A stretch of DNA of 64,000 bases from assembly GCF_019972315.1 (NCBI RefSeq), contig NZ_BLIZ01000001.1, positions 2,765,521-2,829,520 of the forward strand, given 5' to 3'. Position numbers and translations under genes: made by a program. This document shows, one piece after another, positions 15,475 through 26,263 of this stretch (the first letter of the stretch is position 1; each line of letters opens with the position of its first letter). The DNA comes from Geobacter sp. AOG1 (lineage in GTDB: Bacteria; Desulfobacterota; Desulfuromonadia; Geobacterales; Geobacteraceae). A model generated the notes under the pieces. It was not told the DNA's origin and did no database searches. It was given only the letters and a program-made list of their open reading frames with translations.

Positions 15475-15891
15475 CTAGGGAAAATCTGCGCGTACCGCGT
15501 GAAGTTTTATGGGGAGCTGTTGCTGATACAGCATGAAATCATTATCTGTCGTAAAAATTGGCAGATCGTTTCGAACCGATAGAGCACAGAGAAGAAAATC
15601 AGTATTCGAGCCCTGAATGCCCTTCCCACGACTGAGGTTGAAAAACTCAGCAGCCAGTTCGTAATCGGCGGTAGTGGCCGGCAGATCCGCAAAGGCCCGT
15701 AAGTGTTCACGCAGTTGCGAATAGCGGATGGTATCCTTGATTCCGGACAGGAGTTCCTGGCGAATTGGCCCTGTCATCTGCACCCTGAATTCCTTGATAA
15801 GTTCCCTGAGTTCAAGCACAGCAGGCAAATCCTTGCCATCATTACGACGGAGTGCCAGAGACCAGACGCATGTATCTACCAAAACCTTCAT
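15475..15891 (-). CDS. vapC: VapC-type PIN-domain ribonuclease toxin
   Basis: 138 aa. The PIN-domain acidic residues are in place: MKVLVDTCVWS (Asp6), ELLSGI, the GSNTDFLLCALS Asp and TTDNDF. VapC toxins are magnesium-dependent RNases that cut tRNA or rRNA. The ATG overlaps the stop of the upstream antitoxin gene by 4 nt (ATGA), the usual arrangement for translational coupling. It is likely to be held inactive by the antitoxin and autoregulated by the complex. Confidence 0.88.
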   Translation of the reverse strand: MKVLVDTCVWSLALRRNDGKDLPAVLELRELIKEFRVQMTGPIRQELLSGIKDTIRYSQLREHLRAFADLPATTADYELAAEFFNLSRGKGIQGSNTDFLLCALSVRNDLPIFTTDNDFMLYQQQLPIKLHAVRADFP

Positions 15892-17240: not shown

Positions 17241-17258
17241 GGAGTAATATTCCTTTCT

Positions 17259-17330
17259 TAAAGGCCGGGACCTAAAGAACCCGGGACTCGGAACCCGGGA
17301 CCGGTAACCTCTAAAACCCGGAACGAGCCG
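17259..17330. repeat. GC-rich dispersed repeat, copy 3
   Basis: It reads GGCCGGGACCTAAAG then CCCGGGACTCGGAACCCGGG, the same family as 14131. It lies in the 463-nt spacer between galE and the divergent operon starting at 17704. The rest of the spacer holds a 31-codon open remnant on the minus strand ending at 17331 and no recognisable gene. Confidence 0.65.
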
Positions 17331-17703
17331 TTAATCCATAATGGCCTTCATATTTTTAGCCCACTCAAGGGCTTCTGTAAAGGTAAAAACAAGACCGACG
17401 CGGCTTGTAACGTATCCGTGCTTTTACCATTTAATTAATAGCTCTGGCGGCTCTTTTATTTCTTGCCTAACAGGGGTCGGTCAGTGTATGTAAACAGTGA
17501 TAAGTTCGGTTCATACAACGTTTGAGGTGCAGTTTTGTTCGATTGGAAAAACGAGAAACAAACAAGGGCCGTTTGTGCCGGTTACCGACCGGTGCTGCGG
17601 CCTTTTTTTCATGCGGCGGGTACAAAGAGGATTGGCGAGGTGGGTCGTCGTCTGCTGGTTTACGCCGCAGACAGCTCATCGACATGCGCAGAGGGGTGTC
17701 ACT

Positions 17704-18261
17704 ATGAATAAACGGGTAATTGAGGCAGTACGGGCACAGACAACGCTTTTTCTCATGGCACTCATCCTGCTCACTTCCTGCGGGTTTGCCTATGGGGGAA
17801 CCAGCCGGGAAAATAACCAGGCCCTGCTCCTGCCACCGTCGCAAGAGGACCAGGCCGTACTCACGCGCCGCCTCCAGACCGCCAAGCGGGATATCGAGGC
17901 CTTCCGGATCTTCGCGGAGAATTTCCGCAGCAACGGCGATTCCAAGGCGCTCGCCCAACTCCAGTACCCCGTGGACGATTTCCTGAAAAAGCATGTTGAT
18001 AATCTCCTGGCCCAGAGTATGCAGCTTGCGACCCTTGAAACCATTCGGCTGACGGCGGAAATCATGTTCATCAAGGCGCGCGTTTTCCTGTACCTGAACC
18101 GGGGTGACGCCGCCAGGAGCGTCGTTGCTGAGATGAAGAACCAGTTCGGCTCCTACCAGAAGATGTCGGTCGAGCTTCCCGGCAAGACCACCACGCTGGA
18201 CGAAGGGATACGGCTGCTCGACGAGGAACTGGCGAAGGCCGTCACTACCGAGCGAAAATAA
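17704..18261 (+). CDS. Putative lipoprotein, first gene of an ExbBD/TonB-like operon
   Basis: 185 aa. The N-terminal signal ends in a lipobox-like LLTSC (Cys near residue 26), so it is probably a lipoprotein; cleavage at AYG-GT by signal peptidase I is the alternative. The mature part is predicted helical (QAVLTRRLQTAKRDIEAF, DFLKKHVDNLLAQ, LFLYLNRGDAARSV-like segments). I do not recognise the family. The gene stops 15 nt before the ExbB-like gene, so it is the first gene of the operon and may be an envelope anchor or regulator of the channel. Confidence 0.65.
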   Translation: MNKRVIEAVRAQTTLFLMALILLTSCGFAYGGTSRENNQALLLPPSQEDQAVLTRRLQTAKRDIEAFRIFAENFRSNGDSKALAQLQYPVDDFLKKHVDNLLAQSMQLATLETIRLTAEIMFIKARVFLYLNRGDAARSVVAEMKNQFGSYQKMSVELPGKTTTLDEGIRLLDEELAKAVTTERK

Positions 18262-18276
18262 AGGAGTGCGCTGATT

Positions 18277-18852
18277 ATGGAGTTTTTTGGCATCATCACG
18301 ATAAATCCTGAGAGCTTCAACGTCTGGTCGCTGCGGATATCCATGTCGCTGACCACGTCCATCTTCTTCCTCGGGGTCATCATGGCCATACGCGCCTTTC
18401 TCCACGCCAGAGGGGGCGATCCTGCCCATCTCGACCGGGTCAAGAGCCAGGCGATGTCGCCGACCGACGGTCTGGCTGAGAGCGTCGCGAAGATGCTCTG
18501 GTCCACGGCACGTGACGAGGAGCAGAGGGGGCACGGGGCGCCCCAGGCGTTCCTTCAGGATGCCACACGCCAAGTGGCGGAAAACGGCTACGACGGCCGC
18601 TATGTCAACAAGATCTACATGTGCGCCAACCTCCTTCCCCCCATCGGCCTGTGGGGAACCGTTGCCGGCATGATCGTGATCTTCCTCTATACCGGCGATC
18701 CCACCAACGCCCTCAACAAGGGAGCCATCGGCACCAAGCTCTGGTCGACGTTCCTGGCCCTGATGTATTACGTCATTCTCGAGTCGATCTGCCTCTTCCT
18801 GACCATGCATTCGAGAAAAAGCATCGACCGCGGGCTGAGGGTGAAACTGTAA
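18277..18852 (+). CDS. MotA/TolQ/ExbB-like proton channel subunit
   Basis: 191 aa with three predicted membrane helices, about 18-42, 112-136 and 150-172. The second and third carry the family pattern ANLLPPIGLWGTVAGM and the following GAIGTKLWSTFLALMYYVILE, matching the ExbB/TolQ ANxAPxxGLxGTVxGM block. A cytoplasmic loop lies between helices 1 and 2. With the ExbD-like product of the next gene (13 nt downstream) it should form a pmf-driven motor in the inner membrane. It is shorter than typical ExbB (about 220-240 aa). The overall call is good; the specific system is unknown. Confidence 0.78.
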   Translation: MEFFGIITINPESFNVWSLRISMSLTTSIFFLGVIMAIRAFLHARGGDPAHLDRVKSQAMSPTDGLAESVAKMLWSTARDEEQRGHGAPQAFLQDATRQVAENGYDGRYVNKIYMCANLLPPIGLWGTVAGMIVIFLYTGDPTNALNKGAIGTKLWSTFLALMYYVILESICLFLTMHSRKSIDRGLRVKL

Positions 18853-18865
18853 GGAGGGACGATCG

Positions 18866-19336
18866 ATGGCCATGAAACGTATCGCACGTCACACCTGGCT
18901 TTTTTCCTTCACGGATGTCGCCTTCCTGCTCCTGCTGGTGTGGACCCAGGTCGCGCGGCTGAATACGGCCGCAACCCCCGTGGCGGAAATGCAGCTACCG
19001 GCCCCGGTCGTGGCGAAGAACCCGGAACTGACGGCACTGAAAACCTATAAAGAGTACCAGCAGGTGCTCATCGAGAAACATTCCGAGCGGCCGTACCGGT
19101 TGACTCGCATCGTCAGCGGGAAGGAGGTGTCGCGGAGCGAACCCATGACGTTCGCGGAACTGGCCTCGGCCCTGCATGTGGTTTACCGCGAGCGGAGCGG
19201 TACCCCGCGCCCCGTAGTCGTCCCGCTCCCCGAATCCTTCAGCAGTGACCTCCTTCAGGCGGCAGCGCTCGTCAGCAAGCTCTGGAACGTAAAGGAGAGC
19301 GCTGTGGTCCACCTGGAGAACGAAGGAAAACGATGA
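18866..19336 (+). CDS. ExbD/TolR-like subunit
   Basis: 156 aa. A short cytoplasmic N-terminus is followed by a single membrane helix (WLFSFTDVAFLLLLVWTQVA). Its aspartate is placed like the proton-carrying Asp in ExbD/TolR/MotB (PFIDVMLVLLI-type motif). The periplasmic domain (about 35-150) is small and mixed alpha/beta, as in ExbD. The stop overlaps the start of the next gene by 4 nt. GGAGGG precedes the start. The family call rests on the helix with Asp, the size and the ExbB-like neighbour. Confidence 0.72.
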   Translation: MAMKRIARHTWLFSFTDVAFLLLLVWTQVARLNTAATPVAEMQLPAPVVAKNPELTALKTYKEYQQVLIEKHSERPYRLTRIVSGKEVSRSEPMTFAELASALHVVYRERSGTPRPVVVPLPESFSSDLLQAAALVSKLWNVKESAVVHLENEGKR

Positions 19337-20316
19337 GCCGTCTGATTCGCATGGCCTATGGCCACGGCGGGACCAGATTGGAGCGCATCCTCGTCACCGC
19401 TTCTCCTGCTGAAACAAAGCCCATGCCGCGTTGGCTGCAGCTTTTGTTGCTGGTTTCCTGGATCGTTGCCCTAGTCCTGTTCAGCCGTTACGCAGTTCAT
19501 ACCATCCCGCATCAGACGACAGCCATCGACACGAGCCGGCTGGAGCTGATGCCACCCCCCGCTCTACCCGAACCACCGCATGTCATGCCGGCCGAACCAC
19601 AACCGCCGGCGCCGCTGCAGAGCGAGCAAAAACCTCAGGAACGACCGCAGGAGGATCTGCCCCCCACCATTAACCGGCCCGCTCAGCGCGCTCCCGAGGC
19701 CATAGAGTACCAGCCGCGCATTGCCCGGGAAAGGGCGTCTGCAGTCACCGACGTCGGAGCGTCGGCAGCGCCCCAGGTGCGGCGGGGTGCCGCCATGAAC
19801 GAAACAGCGGCCGAACGGACGACCATCACGCGGAGCCGGGGCGCCTCCACAGCCGAGGCGCCTGCTGCCACGGAACGGATTGCCCCCCTGCGGCGGGCAA
19901 GGGGAGCAGAAGGAACGCCGTCGGCATCGGAACCGGAACTTCGACCGATCACCCGCAAAGAACGCACGTCGGGGACTATTGCGGGGAGCACACAGCAGGT
20001 GATGGCTGCACGGGAGCGGACGGCTGGGGTGGCTGGCGACGAGAAGGGAAGCTCGTCCCTCTCCCCCGCCCGGGGAGTATCGTTCGCGAGCCTGGAGATA
20101 TGCGCCAGCCCCCGGGAAGAGGAAGAAAAGATTACGGCGGTACTGGGGGTCGTCGGCGGCCGGCAGAGTTGCCGGAACGGGTCGGGCGAGTACCGGTTCA
20201 CGGGGACCCGGCGAATTTCGTCGTTCAATCTCATTATTTTCCCCGCCAAGGGACGTAAACCAACCAACAGATGCGAGGAACTGGAAAATGCGTACAGGTG
20301 CCTTGAAGCCCGTTGA
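19333..20316 (+). CDS. TonB-like proline-rich energy-transducer candidate
   Basis: 327 aa. Topology fits TonB: a cytoplasmic N-terminus of about 33 residues, one membrane helix (WLQLLLLVSWIVALVLF, about 35-52), then a long Pro/Glu/Arg-rich periplasmic stretch (PPPALPEPPHVMPAEPQPPA and onward, about 75-245). A small C-terminal domain carries four cysteines (EICAS, QSCRN, NRCEE, YRCLE) that could make two disulfides. The C-terminus does not show the usual TonB domain, so the outer partner is probably non-standard. It overlaps its neighbours by 4 nt (upstream) and 29 nt (downstream), implying translational coupling. Confidence 0.6.
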   Translation: MSRLIRMAYGHGGTRLERILVTASPAETKPMPRWLQLLLLVSWIVALVLFSRYAVHTIPHQTTAIDTSRLELMPPPALPEPPHVMPAEPQPPAPLQSEQKPQERPQEDLPPTINRPAQRAPEAIEYQPRIARERASAVTDVGASAAPQVRRGAAMNETAAERTTITRSRGASTAEAPAATERIAPLRRARGAEGTPSASEPELRPITRKERTSGTIAGSTQQVMAARERTAGVAGDEKGSSSLSPARGVSFASLEICASPREEEEKITAVLGVVGGRQSCRNGSGEYRFTGTRRISSFNLIIFPAKGRKPTNRCEELENAYRCLEAR

Positions 20317-22279
20317 CCTACGGGTCGTTTTCCCGCTTGTGGTCCTGCTCAGTCTGCTGGTGGGAGCGACGGCGGCGCACGCGGCCGAAACGAAAAAGAA
20401 GAAAACCGGGACCGCGGCGAAGTCCTCCACGGCAATAAAGGCCGAACGGCCGCAGCCTGCGGCCGTGCCGATCAGGGAGTGGGGGCCGTATCTCGACGTG
20501 GCTTACGAACTCACCTACTGGGACAGGACCGAAATCAGGGAATGGCGTGAAAAAAGCGAGCGGCAGATCGGGGAGACGCTCGCAGCCTACATCACGGAGT
20601 GGAACGGCAAGCTGGCGGATTCTGCCGACAGCACCGGCGCCGACAGGGTGGACAACCGGCTGCCGATATACCGGGAGCGCGATTACCTGCGGCTGGCCAT
20701 CGCCCTGACCGTCGATTACCTCCAGAGCGAGAACCTGGAGAGTCTGAACAGCGCCGAACAGATCCTCGACAAACTGAAGGAGAAGGCGACGATGCCGGAG
20801 GTGGCGTTCTGGACCGGGTTCGTCAAGGCGCTGCAGGCGATGGAGGTGAACGACTCCCCACAGTTCGTCGCCCGGGTCTTCGATATCTGGAACAACGCCG
20901 TCATGTACATCGAGCAGGGAACTGCCGGCACTGCGCCAAGAACGCCCAGCGGCAAGAGCGCCCCCTACCTCTACCGCAACATTGTCAATCTGGTGGTCAA
21001 CCAGGCGATCATCGAACGGAAAATGCGAGATCTCAACGCCCTGGGGCCGCTCTTCCTCATGCTGCGGGACCGGGACCTGGCGGAAAAAGCCGACGAAGGG
21101 CAATACATGACGTCGCTGGTCCGGCGTATCGCGGACGGCTTCGCGGCCCCCGATGCCGACCGTTACCGGCTCAACTTCACCGTGGCGGTCACCGAGGCGC
21201 AGCGGCTGCAGAAGATTGCCACCGCCAAGCTCGATACCCAGGGGATGACCGACGAAGCGCAACGGGTTTTCGAGCAGTCGCGACTCTTCGACGATTATGC
21301 GCTCAAATGGGCCTCCTCCCACCGGAGCAGCGGGGCAGCGCTGGCGATTGCCGACTACCTGGATATTACGAGCTTCGCCATCCAGCGCCTGGCCGACAAC
21401 GGTAAAGCGCCCGCCTACCCCTTCTTTGCCATGCTCCCCGCCCACGACGGTTCATCCACCCTCCTCAAGGCGATGGACATCTTCAACGACCTAGCCGCTT
21501 ATACCAACGGCGGCTGGGAAAAAGCGGGCTACGCAAACCGCGAACTCTATCTGAAGGCAACCCACCGGCTCTGGCGGACCATCATGGAACTCGCCCTCTG
21601 GACGGGCGACTTCTACCAGCTGAAGCTCGACGAAGCCACCGATCCCCGGACCATTTTCGCCGTCGCTGCTCCGATGCAGGCGGTTCTCAATTCCTACCTC
21701 GACTTTTTTGCCGCCCAGACGAGCACTGCCTTTCCGGAGGTCGTCCCCGACTCCGCCTGCTTCGGAGCCGCCGAGGCGGCGGAAAAGCTCGCCCATGCCT
21801 ACCTGCGCACCTACACCTACAGCACGGACAGTGCCAGTTACAACCTCTGGTTCGTCCACCGTCTGCAGGCAGCAGAACTCTTTCCCCTGGCACCACGGGA
21901 AATAGCCCAGTCCGCAGCCGTGCTCCAGCGCGACGGCCGCTACAATCTCTTCCTCGATTACTTCCTCCCCTTGGCGGACCGCTTCAAACAGTCAGCCGCG
22001 GTGCAGAAGTGGCTGGAGGGCCAGAACAGCGACACGGCGGCGGCAGTTCGTGCATACGCCGGCACCATCGACCGGGTGTTTGCCGATCCCGGCGGCAGGA
22101 GCAGTGCCGGCCGAATCGCCGACGCCACACCGTTCCAGCGGTTGCGGGAAGAGTTGCAACGCAAGCCGGACCATCCGGTGCACAAGCTCCTGAAAGACTT
22201 TTACGTGGAAGAAATGGGCAAAGCCACCCCCTATACCCGGCTGCTGAAAGATGCGAACCGACTCGGCGGAAGGCTGTAG
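20288..22279 (+). CDS. Large exported helical protein of unknown family (operon member)
   Basis: 663 aa. A signal peptide (VFPLVVLLSLLVGATAAHA) is followed by a Lys-rich linker, then an almost entirely alpha-helical, charged protein without catalytic motifs I recognise. It shares features with the next gene's product: an N-terminal helix pair ending in LAAYITEWNGKL versus PGYITAWEQRL, a PDSACFGAAEAAEKLAHA versus PDSAYFAAAECLKMLAQL block, and a C-terminal DHPVHKLLKDFY versus NHPMHKMLKASFY motif. The two are therefore likely paralogues. GAGGA lies 8 nt before the ATG. It is presumed periplasmic, working with the ExbBD/TonB-like proteins. Confidence 0.65.
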   Translation: MRTGALKPVDLRVVFPLVVLLSLLVGATAAHAAETKKKKTGTAAKSSTAIKAERPQPAAVPIREWGPYLDVAYELTYWDRTEIREWREKSERQIGETLAAYITEWNGKLADSADSTGADRVDNRLPIYRERDYLRLAIALTVDYLQSENLESLNSAEQILDKLKEKATMPEVAFWTGFVKALQAMEVNDSPQFVARVFDIWNNAVMYIEQGTAGTAPRTPSGKSAPYLYRNIVNLVVNQAIIERKMRDLNALGPLFLMLRDRDLAEKADEGQYMTSLVRRIADGFAAPDADRYRLNFTVAVTEAQRLQKIATAKLDTQGMTDEAQRVFEQSRLFDDYALKWASSHRSSGAALAIADYLDITSFAIQRLADNGKAPAYPFFAMLPAHDGSSTLLKAMDIFNDLAAYTNGGWEKAGYANRELYLKATHRLWRTIMELALWTGDFYQLKLDEATDPRTIFAVAAPMQAVLNSYLDFFAAQTSTAFPEVVPDSACFGAAEAAEKLAHAYLRTYTYSTDSASYNLWFVHRLQAAELFPLAPREIAQSAAVLQRDGRYNLFLDYFLPLADRFKQSAAVQKWLEGQNSDTAAAVRAYAGTIDRVFADPGGRSSAGRIADATPFQRLREELQRKPDHPVHKLLKDFYVEEMGKATPYTRLLKDANRLGGRL

Positions 22280-22332
22280 CCCCCCCTGTTTTCTGCTTCA
22301 CACGACCCGATATGATGACGCGAGGACCTTTT

Positions 22333-24999
22333 ATGCGAGTTATCCGAAGTCTGCTCCTGGGCGCGCTGCTGTCATGCTCCCTCCCCTTTGCCGCCTCCGC
22401 TGGTGAAACCTCGCCGGCGCACGAGTGGGATGCGGTTCTCGACAGAATCAGCGCCTCTACCTGGCACGGCCGGGCCGAGCTGAATGCCGAACTGCAACAG
22501 CACGAGGCACGCATCAAGCAGGACCTCCCCGGCTACATAACCGCCTGGGAACAGCGCCTGGCTGTCCCGATCGCCTATACCGACAAGAAAAGGACGGGGG
22601 ACTCCTGCGGACCGCTCACCTACTGCGCCGCCGACTTCCTCGACATCCGGAAACTTGTTCACCTACTGCGGGAGCGAAACGAGCCGGTGGCGCGCCTGCT
22701 CTTCGACAAGCTCTCGCCGGAAGCGCAGCAGGCCATCACTGCATCCGCCCCGCCCCCCCTTCCCCCGGGGCAAAGCGGTGCCACGAGTGCAACTGCCGGT
22801 GCAACGGGGGCCGCGCTGGAAAAAGCGGCACAACTTCTCCCCGGCGAGCTGACCCGGATCGTGCGGGAGGAATCTCTCTACACTGCGGAGCGCTTCACGG
22901 GAGTACGGCTCTCCTTTACAACCAGAAGCCTCGTCTCCGAGCACAACGATGCGCAAAACCGCGTCTGCATCAACAAAAGCCTCCTCAGCGAGACGTTCCC
23001 GGAGGAAATGGCACACAACTTCAAGTGCGTCATCCAGAAGGACGAAACCTACCGGCGGGTGGTTGCTGCCAGAACGGTCCAGTACCTGCGCACGGGAGAC
23101 ACCAAGACCCTTGCGACGGGGATCGCCCTCAGCGAAAAATTCGAAGACAAGCTCATGTACACCGACTTTGCGTTCTGGTACTACTACCCGCGGATGCTGG
23201 ACGACGTGCAGACCGGCAATGAGGTCGCGCTGAAGTACGACGCCTATGCGCTGCTGAACGATGCCGTCCTGGGGGGAGAGCCAACGGCCGCAGCGAAGTC
23301 CGGTCCTGCCGAGCTGGAGCGACGTCACTACGGCTGGAACCTCGCCGATGTTGTCCTTGTCAGGGCGATCATGGAAGGACGCATGAGCGGCCTTGAATCC
23401 CTCGGCTCGGCCATCTGGCTGCTCGGTTACCGTAACGAAGCACCGGCCGGCAGCGGGCCGGAGAGAGAGCTGGCGCTGCTCCTCACCGATGTGCGCAGGT
23501 ACCTGACCGGACCCGACTCCGACAATTTCCGCCTGAACTATGCGGTTGCAATGCGCGAAGGGATGCGCCGCTACGCCCTCCTCATCCGTGCACTCGATAC
23601 GAATGAAGGGGGCGCAGCCGCCGAAAAGCTCTTCAACGAAGCCCGGAAATACCTGCGGCTCGCCTATGAATGGGCGGAAACCGGCCAGGGCAGGGCCACG
23701 GCCGTCACGAACTATCTGGAGCTCATCAACCTGGCGCAGGCGCGGATGAAAGACATGCTTCCCCCTACTGCCTATGCGGCTCTGGCGACAAGCCCGGGCA
23801 AAGCCAACGCCGATACTGCGGTCGTCCTGTATCACGAAATGGCTGCCCGGGAAAACGAGGGGTGGGACCAGCTGCGCTTCGTAAGCCGCAAGTCCTACAT
23901 CGACAGTTCCCAGAAGCTCTGGAACGCACTGCGGCGGAATACGGTCCTTGTCGGTGACTACTACCTGCAACGGATGGACAAGGAAGATTTCCAGAGCGTC
24001 ATGGACAACGCCGAGCCCGCGGAACGGGCGCTGCTGCGCTACGTAAAGCTGTTCGACGAGTTCACGGCCAATGGCCACCGGGAAATCATGCCTGATTCGG
24101 CCTACTTCGCCGCTGCGGAGTGCCTGAAAATGCTGGCGCAGTTGAAGCGCATCGAGTACGCCTACAACAACAAAATCGAACTGCACAACCAGTCCATCAC
24201 CTACCTGCTAAAGGCGATCGAAGTGTATCCGTACGACGACAGCATCAACGTCTATGCGGTGATGAGCAAGAACATCAACACCCCTCTCGTCAACCGGTCG
24301 CTGGATAACGTCCTGAGCAGGATGGTCGCCAACCCGGTCACCGCCAAATGTCTCGACAGTTCCCGAGGCTTCTGTGACCGCAGCCTCACGCAGACCATCG
24401 AATGGAATATGTACAAGGCAAAGAACAACCTGTCCGGAAGAACCGACATTGACCGGCTTGAGGAACTGAAGGCCCTGGTCCGCAACGTGCAGGAGGGAAC
24501 CCCCGCACCCGGCCCGGACACACGTGCGGCCGATGCCGGCCAGATGGCACCTCAAAAGGCGAATACCGCCGGTCGCGACACCACCAGTGGAAATCAGCGG
24601 ATGTACCGGCTCGCGGAGCGCTACCTCGCCGTTGCCGAACAACAGGCAACGCTCGTGGCGGAAGCCCGTAAACAACTCGTAAGGAGCATAGCCGAAGGGG
24701 TTGGCTTTGCAACAGCTCCCGGTGCCGACGACCGTCTGCTGGCGAAAAAAGACGAAGCGGAGAAGATCAATGCTGAGCTGCTCGGCTCGTGCACAGCTTA
24801 CCAGCAGTCACCGCGAAACGCGGGGGATGGCAATGGCCTGGCCGACGCGGCGAAGCTGGCCGCCCTCGCCACCGACGTTTCCCTGTACCAGACTGACCAG
24901 TTGATCGACCTGACTATGCGGAAAAAACTTTACGAACTGCGCCTCTTGGACAACCACCCCATGCACAAGATGCTCAAGGCATCCTTTTACGCAAACTGA
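22333..24999 (+). CDS. Very large exported helical protein, paralogue of the preceding gene
   Basis: 888 aa. A signal peptide (MRVIRSLLLGALLSCSLPFA) is followed by a long helical periplasmic protein. An early cysteine pair (SCGPLTYC, about residue 95) and a Pro/Gly/Ala-rich linker (APPPLPPGQSG...) are visible. TPR-like helices such as AEKLFNEARKYLRLAYEWAE and ITYLLKAIEVYPYDDSINVY occur in the middle and C-terminal parts. No enzyme motif is recognised. The ATG at 22333 is chosen for its GAGGA and signal peptide, although the frame is open upstream. It is the last gene of the operon and ends at a strong terminator. Confidence 0.65.
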   Translation: MRVIRSLLLGALLSCSLPFAASAGETSPAHEWDAVLDRISASTWHGRAELNAELQQHEARIKQDLPGYITAWEQRLAVPIAYTDKKRTGDSCGPLTYCAADFLDIRKLVHLLRERNEPVARLLFDKLSPEAQQAITASAPPPLPPGQSGATSATAGATGAALEKAAQLLPGELTRIVREESLYTAERFTGVRLSFTTRSLVSEHNDAQNRVCINKSLLSETFPEEMAHNFKCVIQKDETYRRVVAARTVQYLRTGDTKTLATGIALSEKFEDKLMYTDFAFWYYYPRMLDDVQTGNEVALKYDAYALLNDAVLGGEPTAAAKSGPAELERRHYGWNLADVVLVRAIMEGRMSGLESLGSAIWLLGYRNEAPAGSGPERELALLLTDVRRYLTGPDSDNFRLNYAVAMREGMRRYALLIRALDTNEGGAAAEKLFNEARKYLRLAYEWAETGQGRATAVTNYLELINLAQARMKDMLPPTAYAALATSPGKANADTAVVLYHEMAARENEGWDQLRFVSRKSYIDSSQKLWNALRRNTVLVGDYYLQRMDKEDFQSVMDNAEPAERALLRYVKLFDEFTANGHREIMPDSAYFAAAECLKMLAQLKRIEYAYNNKIELHNQSITYLLKAIEVYPYDDSINVYAVMSKNINTPLVNRSLDNVLSRMVANPVTAKCLDSSRGFCDRSLTQTIEWNMYKAKNNLSGRTDIDRLEELKALVRNVQEGTPAPGPDTRAADAGQMAPQKANTAGRDTTSGNQRMYRLAERYLAVAEQQATLVAEARKQLVRSIAEGVGFATAPGADDRLLAKKDEAEKINAELLGSCTAYQQSPRNAGDGNGLADAAKLAALATDVSLYQTDQLIDLTMRKKLYELRLLDNHPMHKMLKASFYAN

Positions 25000-25030
25000 T
25001 GCCGGCTTGCCCAGAGGTGATCACACCCAT

Positions 25031-25064
25031 AAAAAAACCGGGGCAGAGATGCCCCGGTTTTTTT
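25031..25064. terminator. Bidirectional Rho-independent terminator
   Basis: A 14-nt arm AAAAAAACCGGGGC (25031-25044) and its complement GCCCCGGTTTTTTT (25051-25064) enclose a 6-nt loop. The A-run on one side and T-run on the other let it end both the plus-strand ExbBD/TonB-like operon and the minus-strand AMIN gene. Confidence 0.93.
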
Positions 25065-25092
25065 GTCCTGCAGTATGTAAGAACCCGTCGAC

Positions 25093-26157
25093 CTAAGGAG
25101 CCGACATGATAACCTTCAGCCCGTTGTCGGTTTCGGTGATCCGGTAGGGGAGGAGTTTCCCTTGGGCCGCATCGAGAACGATCCGGAGGAAGTTGGGATG
25201 ATTCCCGAAGCGGACGGCGAGGATGCCGAATTTATGGACCGGTACCCTGGACGCTCCCAGGCCGTTGACCGCGTTGTTGATGTCGATGACCAGCCGGGAA
25301 GGCTGGGACAGGGTGAAGGTCTTGTAATTGGTAATCCGCCCGGTTGCGGTTATCTCCAGGGCATCCTGGTCGATGGATATCCCGGTAACCATGATTTTTC
25401 CCGCCGGCGCGTTCTCTCTCCCTGTGCCCGTTAGTGTGACCGGTCCCGCCTCCGTCGTCTCTGCCAGCGCGGCAGGTGCCGCAACGGGAGCCGGCTCGAT
25501 GGCGGGGGCGGGTGCAGGTGCTGGGTGTTTCGCGGCGACGTGCTCCGGCGGGGCCGTCACTACCCACTCCTTCGCCGGGGGGACGGCAGCAGCGGCTGGC
25601 CGGTTCTCCCGGCCGAAATACCAGGTAAGTCCCACCGCCGCCTCGTAGTTTAGGTGCTTGGCGTAATCGATGGTACCGATCTGCCGCACCTCGCCCCGCA
25701 GTGCCACGTTGTCGGCTACGAAGAGCTTGGCGCCGAGTCCCGCGTTCAGGAGGGCGCTGGTCCGGTTCCGGTACGTGGCAGAGCCGATCTCCTGCTTCAC
25801 GCCCCCCCCCGCCACCAGGAACGGGACGAACGTCGAGCGGGGCATGAGGTAAAGGAGTGCGTCGGCCCGGTAGAGGTAGGCTTCGGCCTGCCGGTTCGAG
25901 GCGCTCGATGGCTTCCGCAGGGTCGATTTCGTATCCACATAGCCGAAGGAGCCTTCGACTCCCACATACTCCGTGATGTCGTAGCCGAGGCGGACCAGCA
26001 GTTCCGGCCCGGCGTCCAGGTGCTCCTGGCCGTCGAAGACGTAGCCTCCCGCCCCCACGGTAAGGGCAACTTCCCCCCCCTTGATGGCGGCGGCGGCCGG
26101 CATGGCCAGCGCCAGAGTCACGAGCAGTGCCAGCAGCACAAAAAATCTCTGGGACAT
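25093..26157 (-). CDS. Outer-membrane beta-barrel protein with C-terminal AMIN domain
   Basis: 354 aa. A signal peptide (MSQRFFVLLALLVTLALAMPAAAA) precedes an OmpA/opacity-type eight-strand barrel (about 25-195, with GPELLVRLGYDITEYVGVEG and a final aromatic-ended strand AAVGLTWYFGRE). A Pro/Ala-rich linker follows, then an AMIN domain (about 255-352, PSRLVIDINNAV...LRIVLDA). AMIN domains bind peptidoglycan and occur in pilus/secretin and amidase systems, so it may tie the outer membrane to the wall. GAGGAGG lies 4 nt before the ATG at 26157. Nine consecutive Gs (coding strand, 25802-25810) lie inside the barrel region. It converges on the ExbBD/TonB-like operon. Confidence 0.82.
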   Translation of the reverse strand: MSQRFFVLLALLVTLALAMPAAAAIKGGEVALTVGAGGYVFDGQEHLDAGPELLVRLGYDITEYVGVEGSFGYVDTKSTLRKPSSASNRQAEAYLYRADALLYLMPRSTFVPFLVAGGGVKQEIGSATYRNRTSALLNAGLGAKLFVADNVALRGEVRQIGTIDYAKHLNYEAAVGLTWYFGRENRPAAAAVPPAKEWVVTAPPEHVAAKHPAPAPAPAIEPAPVAAPAALAETTEAGPVTLTGTGRENAPAGKIMVTGISIDQDALEITATGRITNYKTFTLSQPSRLVIDINNAVNGLGASRVPVHKFGILAVRFGNHPNFLRIVLDAAQGKLLPYRITETDNGLKVIMSAP

Positions 26158-26263
26158 AGTACCTCCTCTGTGTAATCGCATTACAAATCAATAACGGCAG
26201 GTTTCGCTGGAAAGCAACCGACCGGCGTACATTACCACAAAATATCTCATTAATCCAAGAAAA

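Follow-up and report, generated by a model that had tools for sequence, protein, structure and literature searches.

In the ExbBD-TonB and TolQRA systems, a three-transmembrane (TM) ExbB-type protein and a single-TM ExbD-type protein with an Asp act with a transducer made of a TonB-like TM helix, a Pro-rich linker and a C-terminal head. The AglRQS-Glt machinery of Myxococcus combines a motor and a TonB-like transducer with TPR-type periplasmic proteins, an outer membrane (OM) barrel and a lipoprotein, and a core complex of the Agl/Glt type, of unknown function, has been described in Geobacter (PMC3169522). In vWA-type motor-driven transducers, a non-TonB head sits on a motor-linked transducer and a TPR gene lies nearby (PMC12204202).

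Here we analyse a six-gene operon in a 64,000-nucleotide stretch of Geobacter sp. AOG1 DNA (contig NZ_BLIZ01000001.1, positions 2,765,521 to 2,829,520; hereafter the window), which has all of these features in common with the three systems and yet differs from each. As compared to ExbBD-TonB and TolQRA, the window ExbD is unseen by Pfam, the transducer carries a four-Cys head, no TonB-dependent receptor is adjacent, and the partners are a solenoid and an AMIN protein; distant members of the operon family share canonical ExbB and ExbD, and one shares an SHLS-like TM segment. Unlike AglRQS-Glt, the operon has one ExbD, no AgmX C-terminus and no significant sequence similarity to that system, and where the third group has a vWA head it has a small four-Cys alpha/beta domain. 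Literature searches within the collection available found no description of this system. We read the operon as a proton motive force (PMF)-driven trans-envelope coupling module of the ExbBD/TonB kind, working at the wall or OM, with a probability of roughly 0.6.

Results

A translationally coupled operon overlooked by routine annotation

Six ORFs occupy the + strand from 17704 to 24999, at the positions and on the strand first assigned to them. Upstream lies galE on the - strand; downstream come a bidirectional hairpin terminator and then a convergent gene encoding a barrel/AMIN protein (OMP/AMIN):

17704..18261, + strand: gene 1 (lip), 185 aa; exported helical protein with lipobox LTSC in the window lineage, no family match
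18277..18852, + strand: exbB-like, 191 aa; three TM helices, invariant T128 and T158, MotA_ExbB match (E=1.8e-4) under the gathering score
18866..19336, + strand: exbD-like, 156 aa; one TM helix with Asp17 invariant in the alignment, no Pfam match in the window (relatives L065 and L066 match ExbD)
19333..20316, + strand: TonB-like transducer (tonB), 327 aa; cytosolic N-terminus, TM helix at 37-55, Pro/Ala/Arg-rich linker, four-Cys C-terminal domain
20077..20313, + strand: four-Cys C-terminal domain of the transducer; model pLDDT 80.5, no PDB fold match, found only in genomes with hel1
20288..22279, + strand: hel1, 663 aa; exported, predicted alpha-solenoid (all-helical model, pLDDT 76.8), weak matches mainly to TPR-type and other repeat proteins
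22333..24999, + strand: hel2, 888 aa; exported, optional paralogue of hel1 (by hhalign) with an inserted segment, five genomes
about 25029-25066, either strand: bidirectional intrinsic terminator, fold -26.8 kcal/mol
25093..26181, - strand: OMP/AMIN, beta-barrel (OMP_b-brl 2.1e-16) plus AMIN (1.4e-12); convergent in the window, same strand beside the operon in other genera

The exbD and tonB genes overlap by 4 nt (ATGA) and tonB and hel1 by 29 nt. These overlaps recur in relatives, the second again at 29 nt in most Geobacteraceae loci and at 38 nt in a Nitrospirota locus. Purifying selection acts on every one of the six (dN/dS of 0.13-0.32 against two relatives). The six genes are real and translationally coupled, and both the coupling and the strong terminator described in the initial annotation were borne out. 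Its description of the operon as starting with a lipoprotein fits the window, the two relatives closest to it and the Nitrospirota loci; most other Geobacteraceae have no lipobox, and lipidation of gene 1 is therefore not a family trait. Across the Pfam, NCBIfam, PHROGs and PADLOC profile libraries, no usable match to the operon proteins was obtained beyond the weak MotA_ExbB one. The earlier statement that the two exported helical proteins match nothing recognised stands as regards these libraries. Routine annotation overlooks the system, leaving its ExbD-like and TonB-like proteins without a family assignment.

The operon is a rare, patchily distributed unit among unrelated flanks

Within the same family and order, hel1 is encoded by 18 of 97 genomes, counting that of the window. 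Each of the 17 further loci examined (Geobacteraceae and relatives) keeps the order lip-exbB-exbD-tonB-hel1. A genome-wide scan with the ExbB alignment recovered 16 loci in Geobacteraceae, other Desulfuromonadales/deltaproteobacterial MAGs, many Geomonas species and one Nitrospirota MAG, whose locus (L062) has an identical gene order; gene order is thus conserved as had been proposed for checking, with hel2 optional. Phylum-wide sampling added three genomes, G098, G138 and G173 (5 matches in 395 genomes, the window genome and its sister G001 among them), and a second sample added G796, a Nitrospirota genome (2 matches in 396 genomes). In G796 the cluster reads lip-tonB-hel1, with the motor genes absent; one may speculate from this one genome that its transducer borrows another motor.

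The flanks of the operon are unrelated between lineages (polysaccharide, UvrD, MutS, nitrogenase-type or Lap genes), and the operon is a rare and patchy unit sitting among them. In the window it adjoins a large surface-polysaccharide cluster on the - strand (26442-54280; Polysacc_synt_2, a Wzz/tyrosine-kinase type protein and glycosyltransferase-like genes). Polysaccharide export, considered as a general cargo on account of this neighbour, was rejected given the unrelated flanks elsewhere. Separately, a VapC/PIN-like toxin candidate lies at 15475-15891 (- strand), with no obvious antitoxin among the listed ORFs of at least 80 aa. Geomonas oryzae S43 carries two near-identical operon copies near contig ends (L057 and L058, contigs C3 and C15), reflecting either duplication or an assembly artefact.

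Divergent motor proteins linked to canonical ExbB and ExbD

The window ExbB-like protein retains three TM helices, the GxxGT block and the channel Thr, and scores 21.7 bits against Pfam MotA_ExbB, for which the gathering score is 22.9; operon relatives in locus L066 reach 84-89 bits. The ExbD-like protein has a single N-terminal TM helix with the invariant Asp and no Pfam ExbD match, whilst relatives match at 2.9e-15 (L066) and 0.0042 (L065). Profile searches suggested at the outset gave one weak, sub-gathering match (MotA_ExbB), with ExbD and TonB_C unmatched in the window. A search of PDB sequences returned nothing for ExbB and a single chance-level match for ExbD. Across alignments of 14 sequences, the GLWGTV block of ExbB and Asp17 of ExbD are invariant, in agreement with the retained GLxGTV block and membrane Asp noted initially.

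In distant operons, canonical MotA_ExbB (about 1e-24) and ExbD (3e-15) proteins lie beside the same transducer and hel1, and the family is therefore tied to real motors. In G138 and G173 the transducer and hel1 stand next to a canonical ExbD and a pair of ExbB-type proteins, of which one has an ExbD-like domain fused to it; the G098 motor is intermediate and Geobacteraceae form the divergent end. Since hhalign of the exbD alignment against the canonical L066 ExbD did not recover homology, this relationship is argued from the place in the operon, the shared topology and L065 as an intermediate. The ExbB-ExbD fusions themselves (L066 1607-2908 and L067 4784-6103) have an ExbD-like TM helix without the usual Asp and adjoin a normal ExbD.

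The strong divergence of ExbB and ExbD, together with the motor-less G796 locus, would fit a passive scaffold or mechanosensor whose motor-like proteins no longer pump protons. This is unlikely, as the channel Asp and Thr are invariant and exbB and exbD have the lowest dN/dS within the operon. The operon is probably PMF-driven, with proton flow through the ExbB/ExbD pair as the putative energy source.

A four-Cys head that tracks hel1

The initial annotation singled out a Pro-rich spacer and a non-standard four-Cys C-terminus in the transducer, and the analysis upheld both. Cys 257, 280, 314 and 323, all within about 80 C-terminal residues, show no variation in 14 sequences, a set that reaches Nitrospirota and the most distant operons. 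AlphaFold models the head as alpha-beta-beta-beta-alpha. Comparison with the PDB gave no fold match at E<=0.001, none to TolA or TonB, and no sequence match, and TonB_C was found neither by sequence nor by fold. A point against the coupling module is that the TM helix in the window lineage has no SHLS-type His, whilst that of G796 contains a TonB/TolA-like segment, SALLHIL, resembling it.

Among 395 genomes, strong matches to a head profile occur only in genomes that also encode hel1; G098, G138 and G173 score by construction, being part of the alignment, which applies neither to the absences elsewhere nor to the presence in G796. No convincing head was found in any hel1-negative genome of the 395, the leftover matches being short and noise-like (E of 6e-4 to 0.01). 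G796, picked up by hel1 alone, encodes a four-Cys head next door.

hel1 and hel2 are paralogues

Structural matches of hel1 are weak (E>1e-3) and fall mainly on TPR-type and other repeat solenoids; hel1 is accordingly predicted to be a TPR-like solenoid, with no Pfam TPR match. A PPR identity was discarded: the PDB sequence matches behind it rest on one 32-residue helical stretch, none significant alone. An apparent AMIN-like tail on Nitrospirota hel1 received no confirmation from Pfam.

Rather than being two unrelated proteins, hel1 and hel2 are paralogues (hhalign probability 100%, E=7.6e-56), hel2 being a diverged copy with an extra segment that is optional and found only in five genomes. 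The suggestion that both giant proteins form the load of the motor calls for revision, as hel2 is an optional duplicate and hel1 is more likely a periplasmic coupling scaffold leading from transducer to envelope than a cargo; movement of any load by the motor is putative.

A barrel/AMIN neighbour supplies a candidate wall and OM partner

The initial annotation gave a picture with no MotB-type wall-binding domain and named no OM partner, which the analysis did not support: OMP/AMIN, an OM gene with a wall-binding domain, lies just beyond the interval it covered. Of 17 loci, 15 have OMP/AMIN beside the operon; in the other two the contig ends (L028) or hel1 carries the AMIN part fused to its C-terminus (L031, one genome). 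In Geomonas, where it carries an OmpA domain, the gene is immediately upstream on the same strand; in L050 it is immediately downstream, again on the same strand. AMIN domains of PilQ bind peptidoglycan (PMC5285504). Exclusivity to the operon was ruled out: two congeners without the operon, G002 and G003, keep OMP/AMIN at the same locus, so the gene has a role of its own. OMP/AMIN and galE are 225 bp apart at the empty site of G002 and 7.85 kb apart in the window. Set against window 17241-25092, the sites in G002 (L112) and G003 (L114) could date the gain or loss of the operon.

With a motor, a transducer and, in Geomonas, an OM protein bearing OmpA and AMIN wall-binding domains, the operon might be a lineage-specific Tol-Pal paralogue keeping the OM attached to the wall. 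We consider this improbable: the same genome has a complete Tol-Pal at another locus, the cluster contains neither the TolB propeller nor Pal, the head has no TolA/TonB fold match, and the distribution is patchy, unlike that of housekeeping Tol-Pal. Descent from the Agl/Glt core complex (a gliding or Nfs type motor) would account for the parallel logic of an exported protein, ExbB, ExbD, a TonB-like transducer and TPR-like proteins, and such a complex is described in Geobacter (PMC3169522); it is more doubtful still, given the single ExbD in place of two and an Agl-type locus with an AgmX/PglI C-terminus sitting separately in G001, with proteins that do not significantly resemble hel1, hel2 or the four-Cys head. 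The AgmX/PglI C-terminal domain (NF033768) matched nothing in the operon or elsewhere in the window genome. Loci L083 and L085 hold Agl/Glt-like core complexes in Geobacteraceae (exported TPR protein, AglR/Q/S-like proteins, AgmX-type transducer). Least probable is a TonB uptake system serving an unlinked receptor, for although an ExbB-ExbD-TonB-like core is present and receptors are often unlinked, TonB_C is absent, the head tracks hel1 and no TonB-dependent receptor was recognised beside the operon in the window. The operon is thus separate from Tol-Pal, standard Ton clusters and the Agl/Glt core, as first proposed, and the early remark that receptor, TolB and Pal are missing from its surroundings proved accurate.

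An adhesin system surrounds the operon in Geomonas

Genes for LapD, LapG and a TolC-like protein flank the Geomonas operon on one side, and on its other side lies that of a giant RTX/cadherin adhesin of some 2000 aa or more (L029, L030, L033, L034, L036, L038 and L040); LapG is about 7 kb from hel1. LapG is present in 11/12 operon-positive and 0/7 operon-negative Geomonas genomes, an agreement of 18/19 (Fisher p=1.6e-4, uncorrected for shared ancestry), and a single island gained or lost once could give the same correlation. These genes and the OmpA barrel recall the Lap/Bpf loci, and the Shewanella bpf adhesin cluster holds an OmpA-like gene, SO4321, which plays a part in biofilm formation; neither a motor nor a TonB-like transducer is present in the bpf and lap clusters described there (PMC4523816). 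The association suggests an adhesion-related use in Geomonas, to which the Lap link is confined as far as checked. LapG is absent from the window genome, so a Lap partnership is not the general function.

Discussion

The coupling model builds on what was observed, namely the genes and how they are conserved, the motor residues, the domains encoded, and the patterns of linkage and co-occurrence; from these we infer proton flow, contacts between head and hel1 and between hel1 and AMIN, and function. The ExbB/ExbD-like subunits would form the inner-membrane motor, beside which one TM helix would anchor the TonB-like protein, its Pro/Arg-rich linker spanning the periplasm. The four-Cys head, probably held by two disulfides, may engage the hel1 solenoid, plus hel2 where present. 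In turn, hel1 would connect to a peptidoglycan/OM anchor: the barrel/AMIN protein, with OmpA in Geomonas, or an AMIN domain fused to hel1 itself. The output would be force or conformational work at the wall or OM. The most concrete lead comes from Geomonas, where the module may serve to display or anchor a giant surface adhesin of the LapA type.

The known PMF-driven trans-envelope transducers are few, and this operon would add one with its own head, partner and patchy distribution. Motor proteins within its family also run from canonical through intermediate forms to extremely divergent ones. Tentatively, it could represent a dedicated proton-driven machine acting through a solenoid arm on a surface adhesin or on the link between wall and OM, and, with its undescribed four-Cys head, a new transducer class beside Ton, Tol, Agl/Glt and vWA. 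Its head, partner, distribution and intermediates, with the direct genomic link to an adhesin system in Geomonas, make the question of what such orphan motors act upon testable in culturable species.
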